NCBI GenBank assembly: GCA_947627365.1
Contig: CANQVT010000019.1
Coordinates: 1-45,436, forward strand
Length of the DNA stretch: 45,436 nt
Direction: 5' to 3'
Origin: an uncultured Lachnospiraceae bacterium
GTDB lineage: Bacteria > Bacillota > Clostridia > Lachnospirales > Lachnospiraceae
The notes under the pieces were generated by a model. The model was not told the DNA's origin and ran no database searches. It was given only the letters and a program-made list of their open reading frames with translations. Positions 9,260 through 18,750 of the stretch are shown here, piece after piece; the first letter of the stretch is position 1, and each line of letters opens with the position of its first letter. Both the position numbers and the translations under genes were made by a program.

Positions 9260-10248
9260 CCAGTAAATACGTGAAAGTTCTCTTTCAGGCAAGCTCGCAG
9301 CTGTCCCGGCTGCATCTGCTTTTCCTTCGCGACAAATTTCAGATTTTTTTCCAGCACAGCTGGAATATCTCTGAAAGATACTGCTCCCGTCTCCTGCCCG
9401 CTCATCCATGCAATCGAAGAGAGGCCGTCCGTCTCCAAGAACATCCGCTCTGCCGGAATCTCGCGCAGCATGCGTTCATACAACGGCGTAAAATTCTCCG
9501 CCAGATCCGGTCCCAGCGTGAAATAGCAACCGACTTCCAGAAATTTTTCAAACTCCGCCTCGCTGCCGGAATACCAATGTACGCAAACCTTCCCCGGAAA
9601 ATCGCCGATCATCTCCGCGATCTGCCGCTCCTGCCCTTTCGTGTGCAGGACAATCGGCCTTTTAAGCTCCGCCGCAATCTCAAGCTGCTGCGCGAATACA
9701 TGCCTCTGCACGGCAAGCGGAACCTCACACCATACAGAGTCCATGCCGATCTCCCCGACGATCGGGCTGGCCATGAATAATTCCCGGCAATCCTGCGGAT
9801 CAAAACGGTCGCCGTACCACGGGTGAATGCCGAAACTGAGTATGCAGCTCCCGTTTTGTTTCGCCGATTGTTTCTCCGATGTGCCCGAATCATTCATTCT
9901 GTCTCTGTTCGCCGTTCGGGAATCATCGGGCGCATATCGACCGGAAAATATGCCTCCATCCCACTTCTCCTGCTGATCATTCCCCTCTCCCGATTCAAGG
10001 CCCCGCCGCATAAACTCCCACTCTTGCGGCGTCCCGCAGCTGAACACGGTATTGATCCCATATTCTCTTCGCGCCGCAAGTTCCTGCGCCGCGAGCGCGG
10101 ACAGTTCCTGTTTTGTCAGTTTATCCCGGTATCCCTCCGACAGGCAGAGCAGATGCGCATGCATATCCAGCATGCCTATACAATCCTTTTTCTTGTCCTG
10201 TACATCATAGGTTTCAGAAGAATCAGATTGAACTTTCCCATTTTCCAT
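9256..10248 (-). CDS. TatD-family metal-dependent hydrolase
   Basis: This 330-aa amidohydrolase-fold protein has TatD motifs in order: DMHAH (28-32), SFGIHPWY (138-145), GEIGMD (165-170), LHTKG (201-205), HWYSG (224-228) and LETDG (271-275). These provide the His/Glu/Asp metal ligands of TatD-type DNases and hydrolases. Between the first and second motif sits a polar, low-complexity insertion (about residues 86-133, rich in Asp, Arg, Ser and Gln), which makes the protein longer than the usual 250-270 aa. The first 20 residues are also extra. The ribosome binding site is weak. It follows the restriction operon by 30 bases and may be cotranscribed. The substrate is unknown. Confidence 0.85.
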   Translation of the reverse strand: MENGKVQSDSSETYDVQDKKKDCIGMLDMHAHLLCLSEGYRDKLTKQELSALAAQELAARREYGINTVFSCGTPQEWEFMRRGLESGEGNDQQEKWDGGIFSGRYAPDDSRTANRDRMNDSGTSEKQSAKQNGSCILSFGIHPWYGDRFDPQDCRELFMASPIVGEIGMDSVWCEVPLAVQRHVFAQQLEIAAELKRPIVLHTKGQERQIAEMIGDFPGKVCVHWYSGSEAEFEKFLEVGCYFTLGPDLAENFTPLYERMLREIPAERMFLETDGLSSIAWMSGQETGAVSFRDIPAVLEKNLKFVAKEKQMQPGQLRACLKENFHVFTG

Positions 10249-10278: not shown

Positions 10279-11016
10279 TTAAATCGATCCATAAACTACG
10301 TACGGCATTTTCTCTAACGTTTGTTTCCTCTCTTTCCAATCCGGCATCAGCACGGAGAGGAAACTGTAAAATTGTTTCGAGTGATTCGGATAGAGAAAAT
10401 GGCAATATTCATGCATAACCACGTATTCAATACAGTTTCTCGGAGCTTGAAGAAGGCGTTTATTAAGCGTAATAATCCCTTTCTTCTTCAGGCAAGTTCC
10501 CCAACGGGTATCCATATCCCTGATATGCAGCAAAGGTACTCCCACTCCGTATTTCCGGAATACCGGATATAATTCTTCTACTATTTCACCAAAAACTGTT
10601 TTGCATTGCTGATCAAGGAATTGCTGTACCATCTTCTGCTTTTTTAACGTATTATCAGGTTCTTTGACGGTCAGGATAATATATACCCCATCTGATGTGA
10701 CAGAATCCCGGTCATCCTTCAAAACTCTGAGCCGGAGTCCGCGCCCTTGTATATAAAACGTTTCGCCGCTGACATATTTTTTCGGCTGAGACTGATACCG
10801 GGCCATTTCCTCAAATCTTTTGACCGCCTTTTGTATATATTTGGCTTTCCTGCGAACGAACTCATCAATCTCAAAAACCGATACATCAAAACCGGCAGAC
10901 ACAAAGACCCGGCCGTCTCTGCAAATTCTCAGGTTCAGATTCTTTACCTGTTTTCGCTCCAGATAATATCTGATTCCGCCGTTATTGGAAGAAACGGTCC
11001 TGACAACATTTTCCAT
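10279..11016 (-). CDS. YgjP-like zinc metallopeptidase (DUF45/SprT-like)
   Basis: The 245-aa protein carries HEYCHFL (HExxH zinc motif, residues 202-206) followed by the third-ligand region NHSKQFY. The motif DTRWGTCLKKKGIITLNKRL before it is the hallmark of the YgjP/DUF45 metal-dependent hydrolase family. The N-terminal half (YYLERKQVKNLNLRI, FVSAG) also matches that family. The ATG at 11016 has GGAGG upstream, and the gene begins four bases after the hsdR stop, so it is the last gene of the restriction operon. Genes of this family are often found next to type I restriction systems; their role there is not established. Confidence 0.88.
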   Translation of the reverse strand: MENVVRTVSSNNGGIRYYLERKQVKNLNLRICRDGRVFVSAGFDVSVFEIDEFVRRKAKYIQKAVKRFEEMARYQSQPKKYVSGETFYIQGRGLRLRVLKDDRDSVTSDGVYIILTVKEPDNTLKKQKMVQQFLDQQCKTVFGEIVEELYPVFRKYGVGVPLLHIRDMDTRWGTCLKKKGIITLNKRLLQAPRNCIEYVVMHEYCHFLYPNHSKQFYSFLSVLMPDWKERKQTLEKMPYVVYGSI

Positions 11017-11020
11017 ACGG

Positions 11021-14000
11021 CTAAAACCTCCTGAGCGCAACGGCTTTCACATTGTCTATGATTTTGTCAATCAGGTCAAAAGACAATTTCAGTCCCCGCT
11101 TTTTCTCGTACTCATAAAAGAGGTCGTCAATATTCTGAGAAATCCGGTCATGAATCGTTTCGTTATTCGTCCAATCCACCTGGCTGTGCGCTGCGATAAT
11201 CTTCGTTATTTCTTCCGATATCTCTGCAACAAAATCAGGCGTAATTATATCGCTCTCCACTTCTTCGAAAATCGGAATTAAGACACCGTAAAAAGCCTGC
11301 GCATGAACGTTTTCCCGAATTCTGTCCGGATAACTTACCGTACTCCTTCCGACATGATAGTCCTCCATAATGGATTTCATTTTTGCGAAATACTCCGCTT
11401 CAGAAATCACTTTTTCCTTATAGAGATCCAGCGCCTCTTTAATCCGTTTTGAGAAGCTGTCATAATAGGCAGGATTTTCATCCCGTTTTTCGCTGATTCT
11501 TTTGGTGAGTCTGCTTGCTATGGCATCCGCTTTCGCGCGCAGCGAGCCCAGCTCGCCCAGCTCCTTCTCAAAATCATCTTTGTTGAGAATATCAACCGGG
11601 CTGGTAATCTGCTTCAGACCTGCAACCGAGAGATGCGTATCGAGCAGGTTCTGCATCTGTTTCTCATATTCCCTGTTATCAATCGCATCACAATATCGGA
11701 TTTTTACGCTGCGGCGGACTTTGGAAAAATAAGCAAACATATCCTGATACTTCTTCCGTTCGTCTTTTGGAAGCGCGTTGTATGCCTGCTCGGCATTCAG
11801 CACAAGGTTCAGCGCACGCCCGTAAACGCACACCCGATCGTAGAAATCTTTTCGGATCCCATCATCTGCCAGCAATACCTCCACTGCCTCAGAATCACCG
11901 GTATCCGGAATTGTCACAAACAGATCCGTCAGCTGGGTATATGCATTTCGAAGGTCTCCAACGGCAGTTATCACATCTGTAACAACCCCTTTGAGGTCAC
12001 CGCAGTCGAAGTTCTCCAGTCCTGCTCCACTGTACATATCCACCGCGATATCAAGATTCTCAATCAATCCCCGGTAGTCCACGATCATGCCGTAGTCCTT
12101 GCCTTCGTACAGGCGATTCGTCCTTGCAATCGCCTGCAAAAGCGCATGTTCTTTCAGTTCCTTATCAATGTACAAAACCTGACAGATCGGGACGTCAAAG
12201 CCCGTGAGAAGCTTACTGCACACAATCAGAATGTCAATCTCGCCATCGCAGAATTTATTTTTCATTGCCTCTTCATAGCAATCTGCGGAACCGTATTGTC
12301 TCATCATTTTATCCCAGTACGCAATGACCAGATCGTCTGTGCCTTCGTCCATATCGTCAACGCTCTCCCGCATATCCGGAGGAGAGATCACAACCGCACA
12401 GTTCAAGTCTCCAAACCGTTCAAAACAGTCCAGATAGCGTACCGCATCCCGCTTGTAGTTTGTCGCAAGCATCGCCTTAAACCCGGTATTTTTGTATCCT
12501 TCAATGAAATGTTCGTTGATGTCCAGAGCAATCCTCTTGATACGCGCATCTGTCGACGTCAGTCGGCGAATACTGCTCCATTTTCTCCGGAGATCCTCCT
12601 TTTGCGCATCTGTCAAACGTTTGGTTGTCTGCCGAAACCACAGATCAATATTCTCCTCGTCTACTTTCTGCTCCACGAAGCGCCCCTCATAGATCAACGG
12701 AACTATCGCATGATCCTCCACGCCGTCCCTGATCGTATATTTATGGATCAATTTCCCAAACCGGGACATCGTATTCTTTTCACGCTTCATCAACGGCGTG
12801 CCTGTAAACCCTATATAGCAGGCGTTTGGGAATACGTTGCGCATCTCAACCGACATAAGCCCGTTGTTCGAACGATGGCTTTCATCTACCAGGACAAAGA
12901 GATTGCGGGAAGGATTTTTCGCTTCCTGCTTTTCCGCCGCCTGAAATTTGTTGATGACGCTGGTAATCACATCCGCTTTCTCACTGTTGATCAGTTCAAC
13001 AAGATGACGCCCGCTGGTCGCCCGAACCGGCTTCAGCCGTGTATGCGCAAAAGTCGCCGCGATCTGCCTGTCCAGTTCCTTGCGGTCTGTGACAATAACC
13101 ACTCGCGGATGCTCCGAAGCCAGTTCCAACAGGATATATTTTGCCAGCATAACCATTGTCAGGCTCTTTCCGCTTCCCTGACTATGCCATATCACGCCGC
13201 TTTGACGGTTGCCCCTCTCATCCGTCTCGGCAATTGTCTTTATGATCTCCTTTACTGCAAAAAACTGCTGGTAGCGACATACTTTTTTCACATTTGCGTC
13301 AAACAAAATAAAATACTGCATCAAATCGTAAATACGTTCGGGGCTGAACAATGCGATGATATTTCTGTCCTGTTCGGTCGGCAGACGATCTGAAACCAGA
13401 GAATCCAGTTTTTTCCTTAACCATCCGTGGTCCTGCTCTTTCCAAATGCTCCAGAACTTTTTCTGTGTTCCCGCTGTCGCATACATCACAACATTTTTAT
13501 TGGTCGCCATTACAAACTGGACAAACTTGAAGAGCTGCGGAATGTATTCCGCCTGCTGATTCCGAATCATCTGTTCCACTGCCTGATCGACAGGAATCTG
13601 AGGAGCCTTACATTCAATTACGGCAAAAGGAATCCCGTTGATAAACAACACCAGATCCGGACGAGCATTATGCCGCTTGTCAAGACTGTCTACCGCGAAC
13701 TCCTCCGTCACATAGAGCAGATTATTTTTCGGATGTTCCCAGTCAATATATTTCAGATTGAAGCTGAGTGTTTTACCGTCGCCGACAATTTCCGGATAGC
13801 TTTTGCCAAGTAACAGGGCATCGTAGATTTTCTCATTCGTAGTCACAAGCCCATCGGTCAACGACTCATCAAGATCCTCCATCGCACGCTCTATATTCGA
13901 CAGAGAAAACTCATTTCCAACTCCGGCGTAGGAATACCTGTTAAGCCGGCGAAGCTGTCCCCGCAAAATATCCTTCAGCAAAACATGGTACCGGCTCCCG

Positions 14001-14110
14001 CGCTGCTTTTCGCAGTCTTCCGGGGACAGATAAATATAGCCCATATCCTGCAAGAGTCTGAGTGCAGGACGCTTACTGGCGTTGCTTTCCAGATACATAT
14101 CTTTATTCAT
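11021..14110 (-). CDS. hsdR: Type I restriction enzyme, R subunit (HsdR)
   Basis: The 1029-aa motor-nuclease subunit cleaves unmethylated DNA after ATP-driven translocation. A PD-(D/E)xK nuclease core is visible near the N-terminus: Asp152 in RPDLVLF, then Glu166 and Lys168 in IECKAP. The superfamily 2 helicase follows with Walker A HSQGSGKSLT (309-318), LVDESHRS as the DEAD-box equivalent (about 407-414), GFTGTPL and ARTNRLYEG. All key residues are present and the length is normal, so the gene looks intact. AAGGAGAA precedes the ATG. It lies 38 bases after hsdS and is followed by the YgjP-like gene. Confidence 0.96.
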   Translation of the reverse strand: MNKDMYLESNASKRPALRLLQDMGYIYLSPEDCEKQRGSRYHVLLKDILRGQLRRLNRYSYAGVGNEFSLSNIERAMEDLDESLTDGLVTTNEKIYDALLLGKSYPEIVGDGKTLSFNLKYIDWEHPKNNLLYVTEEFAVDSLDKRHNARPDLVLFINGIPFAVIECKAPQIPVDQAVEQMIRNQQAEYIPQLFKFVQFVMATNKNVVMYATAGTQKKFWSIWKEQDHGWLRKKLDSLVSDRLPTEQDRNIIALFSPERIYDLMQYFILFDANVKKVCRYQQFFAVKEIIKTIAETDERGNRQSGVIWHSQGSGKSLTMVMLAKYILLELASEHPRVVIVTDRKELDRQIAATFAHTRLKPVRATSGRHLVELINSEKADVITSVINKFQAAEKQEAKNPSRNLFVLVDESHRSNNGLMSVEMRNVFPNACYIGFTGTPLMKREKNTMSRFGKLIHKYTIRDGVEDHAIVPLIYEGRFVEQKVDEENIDLWFRQTTKRLTDAQKEDLRRKWSSIRRLTSTDARIKRIALDINEHFIEGYKNTGFKAMLATNYKRDAVRYLDCFERFGDLNCAVVISPPDMRESVDDMDEGTDDLVIAYWDKMMRQYGSADCYEEAMKNKFCDGEIDILIVCSKLLTGFDVPICQVLYIDKELKEHALLQAIARTNRLYEGKDYGMIVDYRGLIENLDIAVDMYSGAGLENFDCGDLKGVVTDVITAVGDLRNAYTQLTDLFVTIPDTGDSEAVEVLLADDGIRKDFYDRVCVYGRALNLVLNAEQAYNALPKDERKKYQDMFAYFSKVRRSVKIRYCDAIDNREYEKQMQNLLDTHLSVAGLKQITSPVDILNKDDFEKELGELGSLRAKADAIASRLTKRISEKRDENPAYYDSFSKRIKEALDLYKEKVISEAEYFAKMKSIMEDYHVGRSTVSYPDRIRENVHAQAFYGVLIPIFEEVESDIITPDFVAEISEEITKIIAAHSQVDWTNNETIHDRISQNIDDLFYEYEKKRGLKLSFDLIDKIIDNVKAVALRRF

Positions 14111-14148
14111 AGATTTTCTCCTTTGTAAAAATACCCTTGTAATCCGGT

Positions 14149-15438
14149 TCAGGACTTCACTCTCACGATCCCCGTCATCAAGAGTCTTATCAACGTCTTT
14201 TTCAATTTCTTCATCTCATCCAGCTTACGCTGGTGAAGGGTGATGAGGTCGTCAATAGCACTCAAAAATCCACCTATTGCTCTCTGCTCTTCCTGGGTCG
14301 GATATGAAACAATAGTACTTCCCACAAGCTCCTTATTAAGATTATTTACGGCGCTCCCCGCTGCTAAGGACTTGTATTGAGCAAGCATTTGTTGAATTCC
14401 AAGAAGATGACATAGGAATGTTAAATCATAAACTTTCTTCTCGTTCCTGATGAGAAGCCACCCATCATGAATACAGCCATTTATACCCATAATATAAGGT
14501 TTGCCAAAACTCATTGAGTTTGAAAGAATCAAATCTCCCGGGTGCACTTCTCTTGTTTTTGCTAACCCCTCAGGTCGGATTTTCTCTTTAGTTTTTGTGA
14601 TATAATTCCCCATTGTCGGAGCATCGCCAATCTTTACCCAATTAAGTCCATCCTCTGCGTCCGTTATAAAGTCTTCTATCGGGCGTGGTGATCCTCCCCG
14701 CTCAATAATTACTGTGTCGCGAAACTTACGCTGTTCCCAAGGATCGGTAAATTCCGGAAATCGTATCTCAGGCACATTACCGTCATGTTTTGGAAACATC
14801 TTCTCCAGATATACTTTCTTCAACTTTTTCGTTTCATCGATCTTCTTCTGCTGAAGCTCTATCTCCTTATCCTGAACAGCAAGGATCCCGGCAATTTTTA
14901 TCCGCTCATTCAATGGCGGAAGAGGAAACGAAAACTTCATGAACTCAGAAAAGTGTACTCTCTGCTTTTCAATTAGCGAGCCGGTAGATACCTTATTGTA
15001 GTATGTGAGCATTGCATCACAGTTCAGCAGGTTATCCATAAACAATTGATCGTCTTCGTTCAGAGTTGCAAAAATATCATAATAGCCCGATACCGCGACA
15101 GGTTGATTCCCTTTATGGCGAGCGACCGCGCCAAACCGTAAATTCATCGGATTGTATGCATATTCACCCGGACGAATAATTTTATAGGAATTTTCTTTCT
15201 TTACCAAATGACTTCTCTCATACCGCTCTGTTTTTGGTGTAATACCCTCCTCAATCGTCAGACTGTATAACGGGTAAGCGGAAAGGTCATCTGTATATTC
15301 GCTTCTGCTTGTAAATAGCGTTGAAAAAAGGACTTCGCCCCATTCATCCGGGGCAATGCCAAGCGGCCCTTTTCTGTATCCTTCCGGCACTTCTCCACGC
15401 CGAATCTGTTGTATTCTATATGCAATCTCTTTCTCCAT
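14149..15438 (-). CDS. hsdS: Type I restriction-modification specificity subunit (HsdS)
   Basis: At 429 aa this is a full-length specificity subunit with two target-recognition domains, each followed by a conserved coiled-coil spacer. The first domain spans about residues 1-165 and the second about 225-385. The central spacer has LPPLNERIKIAGILAVQD and DETKKLKKVYLEKMF, and the C-terminal spacer has EEQRAIGGFLSAIDDLI and DEMKKLKKTLIRLL. The repeated KLKK helices indicate the usual internal symmetry. It sets which two half-sites are recognised; the sequence cannot be predicted from reading. GGAGGG precedes the ATG. Confidence 0.94.
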   Translation of the reverse strand: MEKEIAYRIQQIRRGEVPEGYRKGPLGIAPDEWGEVLFSTLFTSRSEYTDDLSAYPLYSLTIEEGITPKTERYERSHLVKKENSYKIIRPGEYAYNPMNLRFGAVARHKGNQPVAVSGYYDIFATLNEDDQLFMDNLLNCDAMLTYYNKVSTGSLIEKQRVHFSEFMKFSFPLPPLNERIKIAGILAVQDKEIELQQKKIDETKKLKKVYLEKMFPKHDGNVPEIRFPEFTDPWEQRKFRDTVIIERGGSPRPIEDFITDAEDGLNWVKIGDAPTMGNYITKTKEKIRPEGLAKTREVHPGDLILSNSMSFGKPYIMGINGCIHDGWLLIRNEKKVYDLTFLCHLLGIQQMLAQYKSLAAGSAVNNLNKELVGSTIVSYPTQEEQRAIGGFLSAIDDLITLHQRKLDEMKKLKKTLIRLLMTGIVRVKS

Positions 15439-15467
15439 GTTCCCTCCAGGGCTTCACGCTCGTATAT

Positions 15468-16475
15468 TTACCCTTTTAACCGCTTTACTTCTTCCGTCAG
15501 TTCATCTATATCTGCAGTTTCCATGCTTCTGCGATGTGCATCATACTTTTCGTATTCTGCATTCGCCAGCGTTTCCGCGACCTCACGCTGCACTGTGCCG
15601 AAATTCTCCAGTACCTCCCGTCCGTTAAACCGCAGAAATTGATTCAGCTTGTCCTCCCAGTCGGCCATATGCATAACCTGATGCTGTTTGGCCTGCAGCT
15701 CCGCATAATCCAGATACATATTCACGATCAGATTCAGCGTGCTGATTTCCTCCTGCGTCATATAGTTCTTCGCTACAATTATATCGCTTCGGCGAACCTT
15801 TGCTCCCCTAAAAGCGGTAAGTCCCATATTGTCCCTGGAAGAATCCGCTCTGGCTGCGATCATTTCGGCTGCAGTATATCCGGTCGCCGCATATTCCAGC
15901 TTGTTCTGCACTGTCTTGAAAAACAGCTGCGCGGCATTACTCTTGCTGTCATAATCCACTGACAGAGCAAAAATATCCTTTACTTTCTGATATACTCGCT
16001 TCTCACTGGCCCGAATATCGCGAATCCGCTCCAGCAGTTCGTCAAAATAATCCGCCCCGAATTCTTGCGGATTTTTCAGCCGTTCGTCGTTCAGCACGAA
16101 GCCTTTTTTCATATATTCCGTCAGAATACCGCTCGCCCATTTGCGAAAATGAATACCTACATTGCTGCGGACACGATAACCGACAGCGAGAATCATATCC
16201 AAATTATAATGCTTGATCTCTCTGTTTACCCGTCGTTTCCCCTCTGATTGAACTATCCGGAAATTCCGGATAGTTCGGTCTTCGCTCAATTCGCCGTCTG
16301 CATAGATGTCAATAATATGTTCGTTGATTGTCCGAACATTTACCTGATACAGCTCCGCCATCGTTCTCTGAGGCATCCATACCGTCTCGCCGTCAAAATA
16401 TACATCTATTTTCGTATCGCCCTTTTCATTCTGGTAAATCAGAATTTTTCCGGTATCAGCCAGTTCATTATTCAT
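15468..16475 (-). CDS. RhuM-family protein embedded in the restriction operon
   Basis: This 335-aa protein matches the RhuM (virulence protein RhuM) family. It has VYFDGETVWMPQRTMAELY with a nearby DNA-binding-like element (VNVRTINEHIIDIY), FRIVQSEGKRRVNREIKHY, LDMILAVGYRVRSNVGIHFR and ADSSRDNMGLTAF. Its start overlaps the hsdM stop as ATGA, and hsdS follows 29 bases downstream, so it is cotranscribed and coupled with the methylase. RhuM genes are common inside type I restriction loci of gut bacteria, but their biochemical role is not known. The gene is full-length and undamaged. Confidence 0.9.
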   Translation of the reverse strand: MNNELADTGKILIYQNEKGDTKIDVYFDGETVWMPQRTMAELYQVNVRTINEHIIDIYADGELSEDRTIRNFRIVQSEGKRRVNREIKHYNLDMILAVGYRVRSNVGIHFRKWASGILTEYMKKGFVLNDERLKNPQEFGADYFDELLERIRDIRASEKRVYQKVKDIFALSVDYDSKSNAAQLFFKTVQNKLEYAATGYTAAEMIAARADSSRDNMGLTAFRGAKVRRSDIIVAKNYMTQEEISTLNLIVNMYLDYAELQAKQHQVMHMADWEDKLNQFLRFNGREVLENFGTVQREVAETLANAEYEKYDAHRRSMETADIDELTEEVKRLKG

Positions 16476-18010
16476 AAACCCAGTTCCTCCAGATACTTTG
16501 CCATCTGCGCCTGCACCTGTGTAAGTTCAGTCTCTATATCTGCGATATTTTGCCTTATCTCGTCGATATCCGGCAGCTCCTCTTCCTCATAAGTGTCCAC
16601 ATAACGTGGAATGTTCAGATTATAGTCATTTTGGCGAATCTCATCGCGCGTAGCCAGATAGCTGTACTTATTTACTTTTTCTTCCCTCGCTTCGTAGGTA
16701 CTGACGATCCTCTGAATATCACTGTCACGCAGAATATTCTGATTCTTTCCTTTTTCATAGTTGCCTTCTCCTGACGCGTCAATGAACAGGACGTCGTCAC
16801 GTGTGCGATTCTTCCTGAAAACAAGAATACAGGCCGGAATACCGGTACCATAAAACAAATTTGCAGGAAGTCCGATCACCGCATCCAGCAGATTCATTTC
16901 GATCAGCTGTTTTCGAATCCTTCCTTCGCCGGCGCCTCGAAACAAAACTCCATGCGGAAGGACAACTGCCATCCGGCCTGTCTCTGCATCAAGGCTATGA
17001 AGCATGTGCAGGACAAAGGCGTAATCCCCTTTTGACGAAGGCGGAACTCCCCATTCAAACCGTTTCCAGGGATCCAACTCCGCAGTCATCTTCTCTTTCC
17101 TTTTTTCTTCGGAATCGTAACTCACATTGGACAAAAAACCACTGTCCCATTTATCCATACTGAAAGGAGGGTTTGCAACCACCACCTGAAATTTCATGAG
17201 CTTGTCGTCCTCAATATTCTGAGGGTTTGAAAGTGTATCCCCCTGCCAGATGCGGGCGTCGTCTATCCCATGCAGGAACATGTTCATCGTGCATAGTGCC
17301 CACGTCTGTGCATTCAGCTCCTGTCCGTAAACAGCCGTTTTTCCGTTAGGCACCTTCTTGTATGCTTTCAGCAGCAGGCCCCCGCTTCCGCACGTAGGGT
17401 CGTAAATACGATCGTTTTCCCCTGGTTTTACAAGCTCTGCGACCAATTCAGATACCTGACCGGGGGTATAAAATTCTCCGCCCTTTTTCCCTGCGTCAGA
17501 AGCAAAGTTGGCGATCATATACTCATATGCGTCCCCAATAATATCGGATGAATCCAACTGGCCGGGGCGAAGATCCAGTTCATGAAAATCTTCCAGCAGA
17601 TTGCGAAGCGTCGCATTCTTCTCCCGCACGTCGCCAAAATCGACCTGAGAGTTAAAATCGATTGCACGAAAAACGTTGCGAAGCTTACCACTGTTGTGTT
17701 CCTCGATATGGGACAAAGCTACGTTAATCTTCTGACCGATTTCGTTGTCGTTTCTGTATTCATACAAAAAATCAAAGGAAGAGCTTTCGTCGATTGCAAA
17801 CCGCTCCCGCGCCATCGCCCGTTCTACACGGCGTACATCCCCGTCATACTGCTTCATGTAAATTACTCGCTTTTCCTTTGTAACATCGCTTAAATACTTC
17901 ACAAAGAGCATAGCCAGAATATAATCCTTGTAACGGGAACTGTCTATTTTTCCGCGAAAGCTGTCACATGCTTTCCAAAGTACACGTTGAACATCACTGC
18001 GACTTGTCAT
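16472..18010 (-). CDS. hsdM: Type I DNA methyltransferase subunit (HsdM)
   Basis: This 512-aa N6-adenine methyltransferase subunit has SAM-binding motif I DPTCGSGGLLL (204-214), catalytic NPPF (280-283), and GGEFYTPGQVSELV (178-191), which is typical of HsdM. The N-terminal helical domain (LWKACDSFRGKID, YILAMLFVKYLSD) and the C-terminal coiled coil that contacts HsdS are both present. It starts six bases after the short HsdS-like gene and ends in an ATGA overlap with the RhuM gene. It probably protects host DNA at sites set by HsdS. Confidence 0.96.
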   Translation of the reverse strand: MTSRSDVQRVLWKACDSFRGKIDSSRYKDYILAMLFVKYLSDVTKEKRVIYMKQYDGDVRRVERAMARERFAIDESSSFDFLYEYRNDNEIGQKINVALSHIEEHNSGKLRNVFRAIDFNSQVDFGDVREKNATLRNLLEDFHELDLRPGQLDSSDIIGDAYEYMIANFASDAGKKGGEFYTPGQVSELVAELVKPGENDRIYDPTCGSGGLLLKAYKKVPNGKTAVYGQELNAQTWALCTMNMFLHGIDDARIWQGDTLSNPQNIEDDKLMKFQVVVANPPFSMDKWDSGFLSNVSYDSEEKRKEKMTAELDPWKRFEWGVPPSSKGDYAFVLHMLHSLDAETGRMAVVLPHGVLFRGAGEGRIRKQLIEMNLLDAVIGLPANLFYGTGIPACILVFRKNRTRDDVLFIDASGEGNYEKGKNQNILRDSDIQRIVSTYEAREEKVNKYSYLATRDEIRQNDYNLNIPRYVDTYEEEELPDIDEIRQNIADIETELTQVQAQMAKYLEELGL

Positions 18011-18016
18011 CTTTCA

Positions 18017-18604
18017 TTACCTCTCTTTGTCTCTCTTCGTTTCTTCGTATATAGTATGAATCAGGAAGCTATAGTAACGCTCTTTTTCAATTACCAGCTG
18101 CCGGAGCAGATGCTCCTCTCTCTTTGCCAGCAGATTCATCGCGGAAATCCGCCTCTGATCGGCAATCGGCAATAAGTCTATTTCAAATTCTGTAAAATAT
18201 CTCGCTTTGGCTGCTCCCAGCATGTTGCTGCTGCTGTTTTCGTATATTTCCTTCCTTACTTCCGGTGTGTTAATCAGCCAGAAAAGATATTCCGGCAGAA
18301 GCTTGTCCCCGCACCGGATAATCGCAAAATTCGACGATACGACTGCTCCGGCGGTAGCTTCGTCAATAAGAACCGCCGTATATGGCAGACTCAGACGGAC
18401 AATGATGTCCCCAATCTGAGATATATATTCCAATGGCAGCTTTTCTGATGCATCAAATACATCCATCTGCTCTCTGGCAATAGATCCGTCGGGATTAACC
18501 GACCGCAGATTGAGCAGCGGATAACGTATTCCGGTCGGTTCCCGCGCCTGCTTCCGCGAGAGAACCAGTCCGCTTCGCACCAGAGCCAAATCCCCAAGTT
18601 TCAT
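18017..18604 (-). CDS. Half-length HsdS-like specificity protein (single target-recognition domain)
   Basis: The 195-aa protein is the first gene of the restriction operon. It has one HsdS-type target-recognition domain (MKLGDLALVRSG, YPLLNLRSVNPDG, IGDIIVRLSLPY, VVSSNFAIIRC, PEYLFWLINT) and one terminal helix (LPIADQRRISAMNLLAKREE, LLRQLVIEKERYY). It is about half the size of a normal HsdS. The ATG at 18604 has AGGTG upstream. It could dimerise into an alternative specificity module or modulate the full HsdS; both are inference. It does not look truncated, because it ends cleanly six bases before hsdM. Confidence 0.85.
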   Translation of the reverse strand: MKLGDLALVRSGLVLSRKQAREPTGIRYPLLNLRSVNPDGSIAREQMDVFDASEKLPLEYISQIGDIIVRLSLPYTAVLIDEATAGAVVSSNFAIIRCGDKLLPEYLFWLINTPEVRKEIYENSSSNMLGAAKARYFTEFEIDLLPIADQRRISAMNLLAKREEHLLRQLVIEKERYYSFLIHTIYEETKRDKER

Positions 18605-18678
18605 TTGTTCACCTCGTCTGTCATGATGGAAAAATAACATAAAATTTATTCATGAAAAGATTTTTCTTCTTTATTATC

Positions 18679-18718
18679 ATGCTAATACACATTTCGACAA
18701 ATGTCAATAAATTTTGTC
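18679..18718 (-). promoter_or_regulatory. Promoter of the restriction operon with overlapping inverted repeat
   Basis: TTGACA (18702-18707) and TAGCAT (18679-18684) are spaced by 17 bases on the minus strand. An inverted repeat GACAAA (18696-18701) / TTTGTC (18713-18718) brackets the -35 box, as an operator would. The leader to the half-HsdS start is about 70 bases. Confidence 0.65.
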
Positions 18719-18750
18719 ATGTCTAAAAAATAACGCCCCATTTGTTATAA

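Follow-up and report, generated by a model that had tools for sequence, protein, structure and literature searches.

The stretch of DNA analysed here (the window) comprises 45,436 nt from an uncultured gut bacterium of the Lachnospiraceae (assembly GCA_947627365.1, contig CANQVT010000019.1). It carries a six-gene type I restriction-modification (R-M) operon whose first gene encodes half of a specificity subunit (half-S), proposed below as a controller of the operon. All six open reading frames (ORFs) were confirmed, on the minus strand throughout, in the order half-S, HsdM, RhuM, S, HsdR and YgjP; loci used for comparison bear L-numbers. The half-S gene (18017..18604; ORF as listed 18017-18640) probably starts with the ATG at 18604 and would encode 195 aa. 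After 6 bases it is followed by the gene for the adenine methyltransferase subunit HsdM (16472..18010), which shares a 4-base ATGA overlap with that for RhuM (15468..16475; PADLOC candidate PDC-S05). The gene for the full HsdS, with two target-recognition domains (14149..15438), comes 29 bases later, and that for the nuclease-translocase subunit HsdR (11021..14110) after another 38 bases. The last gene (10279..11040) encodes a YgjP/SprT-like zinc metallopeptidase and overlaps the HsdR gene by 20 bases, assuming its first TTG as start. The coordinates bear out the original prediction of six genes in the same direction with gaps of at most 38 bases or ATGA overlaps, and because of this spacing we infer a single transcript.

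The families originally assigned were recovered for five of the six proteins by Pfam, PADLOC and TIGR matches. HsdM matched Pfam at an E-value of 1.9e-106 and TIGR00497 with 301 bits, and contains the N6-adenine methylase motifs DPTCGSGGL and NPPF. HsdR showed a nuclease N-terminus and an SF2 motor, with PF04313, PF18766 and TIGR00348 above cut-off. The S protein (429 aa; Pfam E-value 4.5e-13) was covered over almost its entire length by PF01420 and PADLOC profiles as a two-domain HsdS. RhuM (4e-111) matched PF13310 with 370.7 bits for a cut-off of 33.7, and YgjP (8e-55) matched PF01863 with 186.5 bits, its HExxH zinc motif being HEYCH, with a conserved NHS. Half-S had no match in Pfam or NCBIfam and a weak one to PADLOC specificity profiles (4.5e-10). 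Its AF2 model, computed as a single chain, matched solved S subunits and has a single target-recognition domain plus a long helix. For YgjP, weak profile matches were obtained to projannalysin (8.9e-05), proabylysin (0.00026) and Wss1 (0.0028), and the Pfam SprT-like profile stayed below cut-off. Given this likeness to Wss1 and SprT-type peptidases, YgjP probably clears stalled complexes or trims HsdR.

The block had been described as more A+T-rich than both flanks, and its G+C content was indeed 45.9% (left flank 55.5%, right flank 55.9%). G+C content at third codon positions ranged from 0.36 to 0.55 across the six genes, from 0.75 to 0.77 in the two upstream genes, and was 0.61 in the downstream TatD gene. 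At 16 of 20 other congener loci both flanking genes were found within about 1 kb, with the operon absent between them. Judged by its lower G+C content and by the proximity of the flanking genes where it is absent, the block was acquired.

A recurrent five-gene unit and its cargo

Half-S genes were searched for in three sets of genomes. The first search covered 398 genomes of the phylum, 118 of which matched at an E-value of 1e-3, many in frames of full-S length; the 20 best loci with a frame of half-S length were taken. A complete core, half-S-HsdM-S-HsdR-YgjP, was present in 15 of them. As to the other five, L172 ends at a contig end, the HsdM beside half-S in L173 scores poorly, and no YgjP was seen in L177, L179 and L181. 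The two later searches, at 1e-14, gave 12 matching genomes among 397 of the family and 11 among 391 of the class, the window being in both counts. Of the 21 further loci 16 were taken, omitting L182 (upstream identical to L036), L192, L201 and L202 (long frames) and L199 (contig end). Seven were complete, S being split between two frames in one of them; one was broken (L230), two were truncated and six held half-S with a poorly scoring HsdM-like protein. Three of these six partners (L225, L226 and L227) have APPI, EPPI or APQL at the NPPF position, and motif I is missing in L229.

A search with RhuM gave 571 loci, the best 80 of which were examined; many of these end early at contig ends. Profiles detected an hsd gene in 32 of these best 80, and nine contained the five-gene unit together with RhuM, two Treponema and Desulfamplus magnetovallimortis among them. 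The original prediction had allowed for chance adjacency if the block showed no shift in composition and if RhuM and YgjP shared an operon in no other genome; such a shift was observed, and these nine loci hold both genes.

Family members were also located on plasmids and Tn7-like elements. The full five-gene order was present on a Proteus plasmid, inside a Tn7-like element, and on a Paracoccus albus plasmid. Photobacterium and Enterobacter plasmids keep the order, the peptidase being cut by the end of the stretch; a Vibrio penaeicida plasmid also has it, HsdR being absent from an incomplete gene table that leaves a 3.4-kb gap in its place. A Neotabrizicola plasmid carries half-S-HsdM-RhuM. 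On two Vibrio plasmids, with HsdM 97-98% identical to that of Proteus, the place of half-S is taken by genes for DUF6088, which we take to be AbiEi-like, and AbiEii (L257:5634-6981 and L260:5633-6980). Relatives of the Proteus HsdM occurred in 499 plasmid records, 351 of them from Klebsiella, and matches to the Proteus half-S in 59 records only. Found in Bacillota, Treponema, Desulfamplus and proteobacterial plasmids, the recurrent unit of five genes is, by this comparison of gene orders, a distinct family of mobile type I R-M operon.

RhuM itself looks like an optional component, a passenger for which several others can stand in. Among the 22 complete loci obtained via half-S (15 + 7, with no selection for RhuM) just two carry it, L166, where it lies in two frames, and L178; the rest have Bro-N, an AbiJ-like protein, SMODS with S-4TM or no cargo. 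On a 33-row HsdM tree the presence of RhuM requires at least seven changes. Cargo sits between HsdM and S or, more rarely, between S and HsdR: RhuM, Bro-N (PADLOC PDC-S13), an AbiJ-like protein, SMODS with S-4TM, DUF6119, Fic, a Schlafen-like protein or proteins without a family; the slots may also be empty. It is thus very improbable that the six genes form one fixed machine requiring RhuM, even if the nine RhuM loci mentioned above hold all six. The earlier idea of one defence module survives as a single acquired defence locus, but not with RhuM as a fixed part. A 2013 study described RhuM beside R-M genes and suggested that it is a toxin (PMC3710099); the window shares this adjacency, and differs in having half-S and YgjP, which the available part of that account does not mention. 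Fold searches with RhuM gave weak matches, among them for a winged-helix-like front part of the model. SMODS-type or nucleotidyltransferase genes paired with S-4TM recur in or beside the operon in Treponema (L043:10300-12226), a same-family relative (L218:3208-5107) and the Proteus plasmid (L255:6963-8874).

The operon resembles type I R-M systems in its three subunits (HsdR, HsdM, HsdS) with their signature domains and in the swapping of S among relatives; it departs from them in the separate half-S gene before hsdM, the YgjP/SprT peptidase after hsdR and the two cargo slots. The individual parts are all of known kind. The literature searched showed neither their combination, in which half-S, YgjP and cargo slots accompany a full type I system, nor elements varying with half-S.

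Inheritance of half-S

Inheritance was compared in 26 aligned systems, among which 15 pairs had HsdM at least 85% identical. In these close pairs half-S was 57-99.5% identical (mean 73), YgjP 61-97% (mean 73) and S 26-40% (mean 32). These identities indicate that S is exchanged between close systems and that half-S is not exchanged in those 15 pairs. In the gammaproteobacterial plasmid group half-S has been exchanged, since HsdM and HsdR of Proteus and Photobacterium are 96.8% identical but their half-S proteins 30.5%, S being at 40.0%. The ratio of non-synonymous to synonymous substitution rates (dN/dS) between the window and L035 was 0.15 for half-S, 0.14 for YgjP, 0.04 for HsdM and 0.08 for both HsdR and RhuM.

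Type I systems with duplicated hsdS and inverted repeats are known, at 3.9% in one survey (PMC7394358), and half-S could in principle be a spare shuffling cassette or a decaying fragment of S. We give this very little credence: between positions 10200 and 18760 of the window no repeats of 18 bases or more, inverted ones included, were common to half-S and S, and no similarity was found between the two proteins. The dN/dS of half-S is close to that of YgjP, which argues against decay, and its position and length are fixed across phyla. A phase-variable, inverting hsdS was likewise set aside, as inverted repeats of that length between the two genes were absent from the same interval.

Half-S may alternatively be a second specificity subunit, whose homodimer with HsdM would methylate (and with HsdR cut) an extra palindromic site, broadening recognition. 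Its target-recognition domain and long helix suit this role, as does its swapping, like the S gene, on gammaproteobacterial plasmids, and half-S dimers made by engineering are active as methylases and, when HsdR is added, as nucleases (PMC6158711). On the other hand, the 15 close pairs keep half-S while S changes, half-S also adjoins HsdM-like proteins that lack an NPPF-type motif, and the duplicated promoter elements described below would be left unexplained. We consider this extra-specificity role unlikely, though far from negligible; it is the main rival to a controller role and is compatible with it. Truncated or engineered half-HsdS proteins (NgoAV, PMC7394358; engineered, PMC6158711) resemble half-S in their single target-recognition domain, and their ability to dimerise is what we propose for half-S; as described there, they replace the full S, whereas here half-S stands beside it. 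In the original prediction half-S was one of the two specificity genes of the operon. The duplicated upstream elements suggest that it is instead, or also, a regulator.

Other forms of half-S were seen. In L225:953-7852 and L227:997-9502 it accompanies an HsdM-like protein (APPI or APQL at the NPPF position), and both S and HsdR are absent from the stretch; a few kb away lie a serine recombinase and a gene for a PemK-like toxin, and there are strong duplicated 20-mers upstream. Single proteins of 535-547 aa (L119:16542-18182 and L122:11428-13032), beside a type I system, fuse an HsdM-like part, its motifs not intact by eye, to a half-S domain. Two crystal entries, PDB 8vsq and 8vsr, entitled 'Co-crystal structure of Prx with Esub1', contain a stand-alone half-S-like protein, Esub1, with Prx. 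The latter is perhaps paratox, a protein of streptococcal phage, and phages may target half-S proteins. Esub1 is known here by these entry titles, and no paper describing the entries was found.

Promoter and duplicated upstream elements

Upstream of half-S, on the minus strand, the sigma-70-like promoter TTGACA-17-TAGCAT (18679..18707) is a consensus match only; 10.5 kb contained 21 such promoter-like matches, and shuffles 14.2. An inverted repeat overlapping the promoter had been predicted; it is probably ACATTTGTCGAAATGT (18704-18689), which is present but does not recur in the same form among the relatives compared. The conserved element is a different one and is duplicated: copy 1, CGTTATTTTTTAGACATGACA (18715..18735), lies immediately 5' of the -35 hexamer and copy 2, TGTTATTTTTCCATCATGACA (18619..18639), immediately 5' of the ribosome-binding site, both on the minus strand and operator-like.

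The motif GTYA-N11-TRAC was read by eye in the window and its relatives, counted in those loci and then fixed before a second test. In the 250 bases 5' of 31 half-S genes (L165, a copy of L164, was dropped) 12 sites were found in nine loci, and other spacings from 3 to 21 gave at most three each. In 17 new loci the fixed motif gave seven sites in four loci, other spacings 0-3, and base shuffles a mean of 0.26 with a maximum of 3 in 500. On the HsdM tree, which does not include L195 and L199, the exact form needs four changes. Within the window's 2.8 Mb assembly (84.5% complete), copy 2 was the only perfect TGTYAT-N9-ATRACA; with one mismatch there were 17 sites including copy 1, against 13 for the control, a background level.

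A test for duplicated 20-mers, free of any motif, was significant (p<=0.05) in 11 of 48 half-S loci, for 2.4 expected, and in all 11 the second copy starts 24-49 bases before the start codon. In the control, 9 of 149 other upstream regions were significant and none was so placed. The 11 include L185, L187, L188 and L189, which have an HsdM-like partner and different repeats. Where the element is duplicated, one copy thus lies near the promoter and the other shortly before the half-S start codon. A test for duplicated palindromes, designed after inspection of the Proteus and Paracoccus sequences, was positive in 12 of 52 loci, nine of which have their second copy between -50 and -20. Among 84 random stretches five were positive, two of them so placed; Proteus (z 8.5) and Paracoccus (z 7.7) ranked highest. 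The Proteus element is also repeated in Acinetobacter junii (z 6.4), one of eight further plasmid loci. Eight of the 12 plasmid half-S loci contain at least one of three elements, the Proteus type in five (two copies in two of them), a CTGTA type twice in two and a GTATT type twice in one; L260 and L267 each have a single GTYA-N11-TRAC site, apparently by chance. The three elements are absent from the two Vibrio operons without half-S. On the gammaproteobacterial plasmids the element differs where half-S has been swapped, HsdM staying 97% identical.

A different leader was seen in L040, L041, L115, L167, L184 and L197, where the end of an upstream ORF shows, by eye, a Cys-rich DGCxxCC-type motif, mostly followed by a hairpin directly 5' of half-S.

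Half-S as a candidate controller

We favour, at chances just short of even, a reading of the locus as a mobile type I operon in which half-S, probably with HsdM, binds both elements and represses its own operon, RhuM being added cargo. The full S would determine the site that M2S methylates and at which R2M2S cuts. A putative half-S dimer, probably with HsdM, would bind the elements at the -35 box and before the ribosome-binding site, and the accumulation of HsdM and half-S would lower expression, in the manner of type II C proteins or RptR. The partner of half-S may be HsdM or a dead HsdM-like protein, and RhuM would act as an added defence effector.

Several observations weigh against this proposal. 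The compared loci are related, so element counts are not independent; in particular, L183 and L193, half of the four new loci with N11 sites, fall within the clade of the window. The N11 element is limited to one 19-row clade of the HsdM tree (12 exact and two near forms, L042 and L043; none in the 14 rows elsewhere), and half-site spacing varies by lineage, with N11 in that clade and, among proteobacteria, N7, N6 or N3. An N11 spacing exceeds the usual type I spacers and does not obviously fit a simple S-like dimer. No significant 20-mer duplication was present in 37 of the 48 loci, and in eight further plasmid loci the palindrome test was weak by count (p<=0.05 in two; five of the 62 random stretches also reached it, three with the second copy at -50 to -20). 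The three plasmid patterns were read from the same sequences in which they were counted, and four of the 12 loci (L259, L261, L266 and L267) have no recognisable element. The half-S of L261 and L267 is 38-41% identical to that of Proteus, and the HsdM of L261 98%, yet the element is absent; these two loci slightly lower the odds that half-S is the controller.

The elements could instead be bound by another protein of the operon or by a host regulator, with an unrelated role for half-S. Bro-N cargo and RhuM, with its winged-helix-like front by weak model matches, may bind DNA, and the variable half-site spacing would also fit. We find this improbable: elements are present without RhuM, duplicated 20-mers also occur where the stretch around half-S holds no S, HsdR or YgjP (L185/L225 and L187/L227), the element of the window does not exceed background in the rest of its own genome, and the Proteus element is missing from the two Vibrio operons that have the same HsdM and no half-S.

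The closest parallel to control by half-S is the RptR/DarTG2 type I system (PMC12255303), where, in the portion of that study available, a small upstream-encoded protein represses, on repeated operators, a type I operon with embedded cargo. The upstream position of a small regulator gene, the repeated promoter operators and the cargo inside the operon (a toxin-antitoxin in the RptR system) are alike; RptR binds a 6-bp palindrome, TAGCTA, whereas here the first gene is a half HsdS of S-type fold and the elements measure about 13-21 bp. The same source describes HsdR breakdown by ClpXP as another control of type I systems, and names the type II controller (C) proteins, with which half-S would share the logic of an operon-encoded DNA binder limiting expression. 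The proposed half-S mechanism differs from theirs in the binding fold. C proteins are helix-turn-helix proteins; half-S is by contrast a target-recognition domain.

More tentatively, and with rather less than even confidence, we suggest that half-HsdS represents a new class of restriction controller: an S-derived target-recognition domain turned sequence-specific repressor, with duplicated operators that change with domain swaps, perhaps methylation-sensitive via HsdM or using a dead HsdM-like partner, in a position taken elsewhere by RptR- or AbiEi-type genes. The question at stake is how type I systems are restrained on entering a new host. RhuM moves from core part to cargo. If the proposal is true, a recognition domain can act as a repressor, the operator of a half-S would be readable from the DNA upstream of its gene, and that operator would predict the recognition target of the domain.

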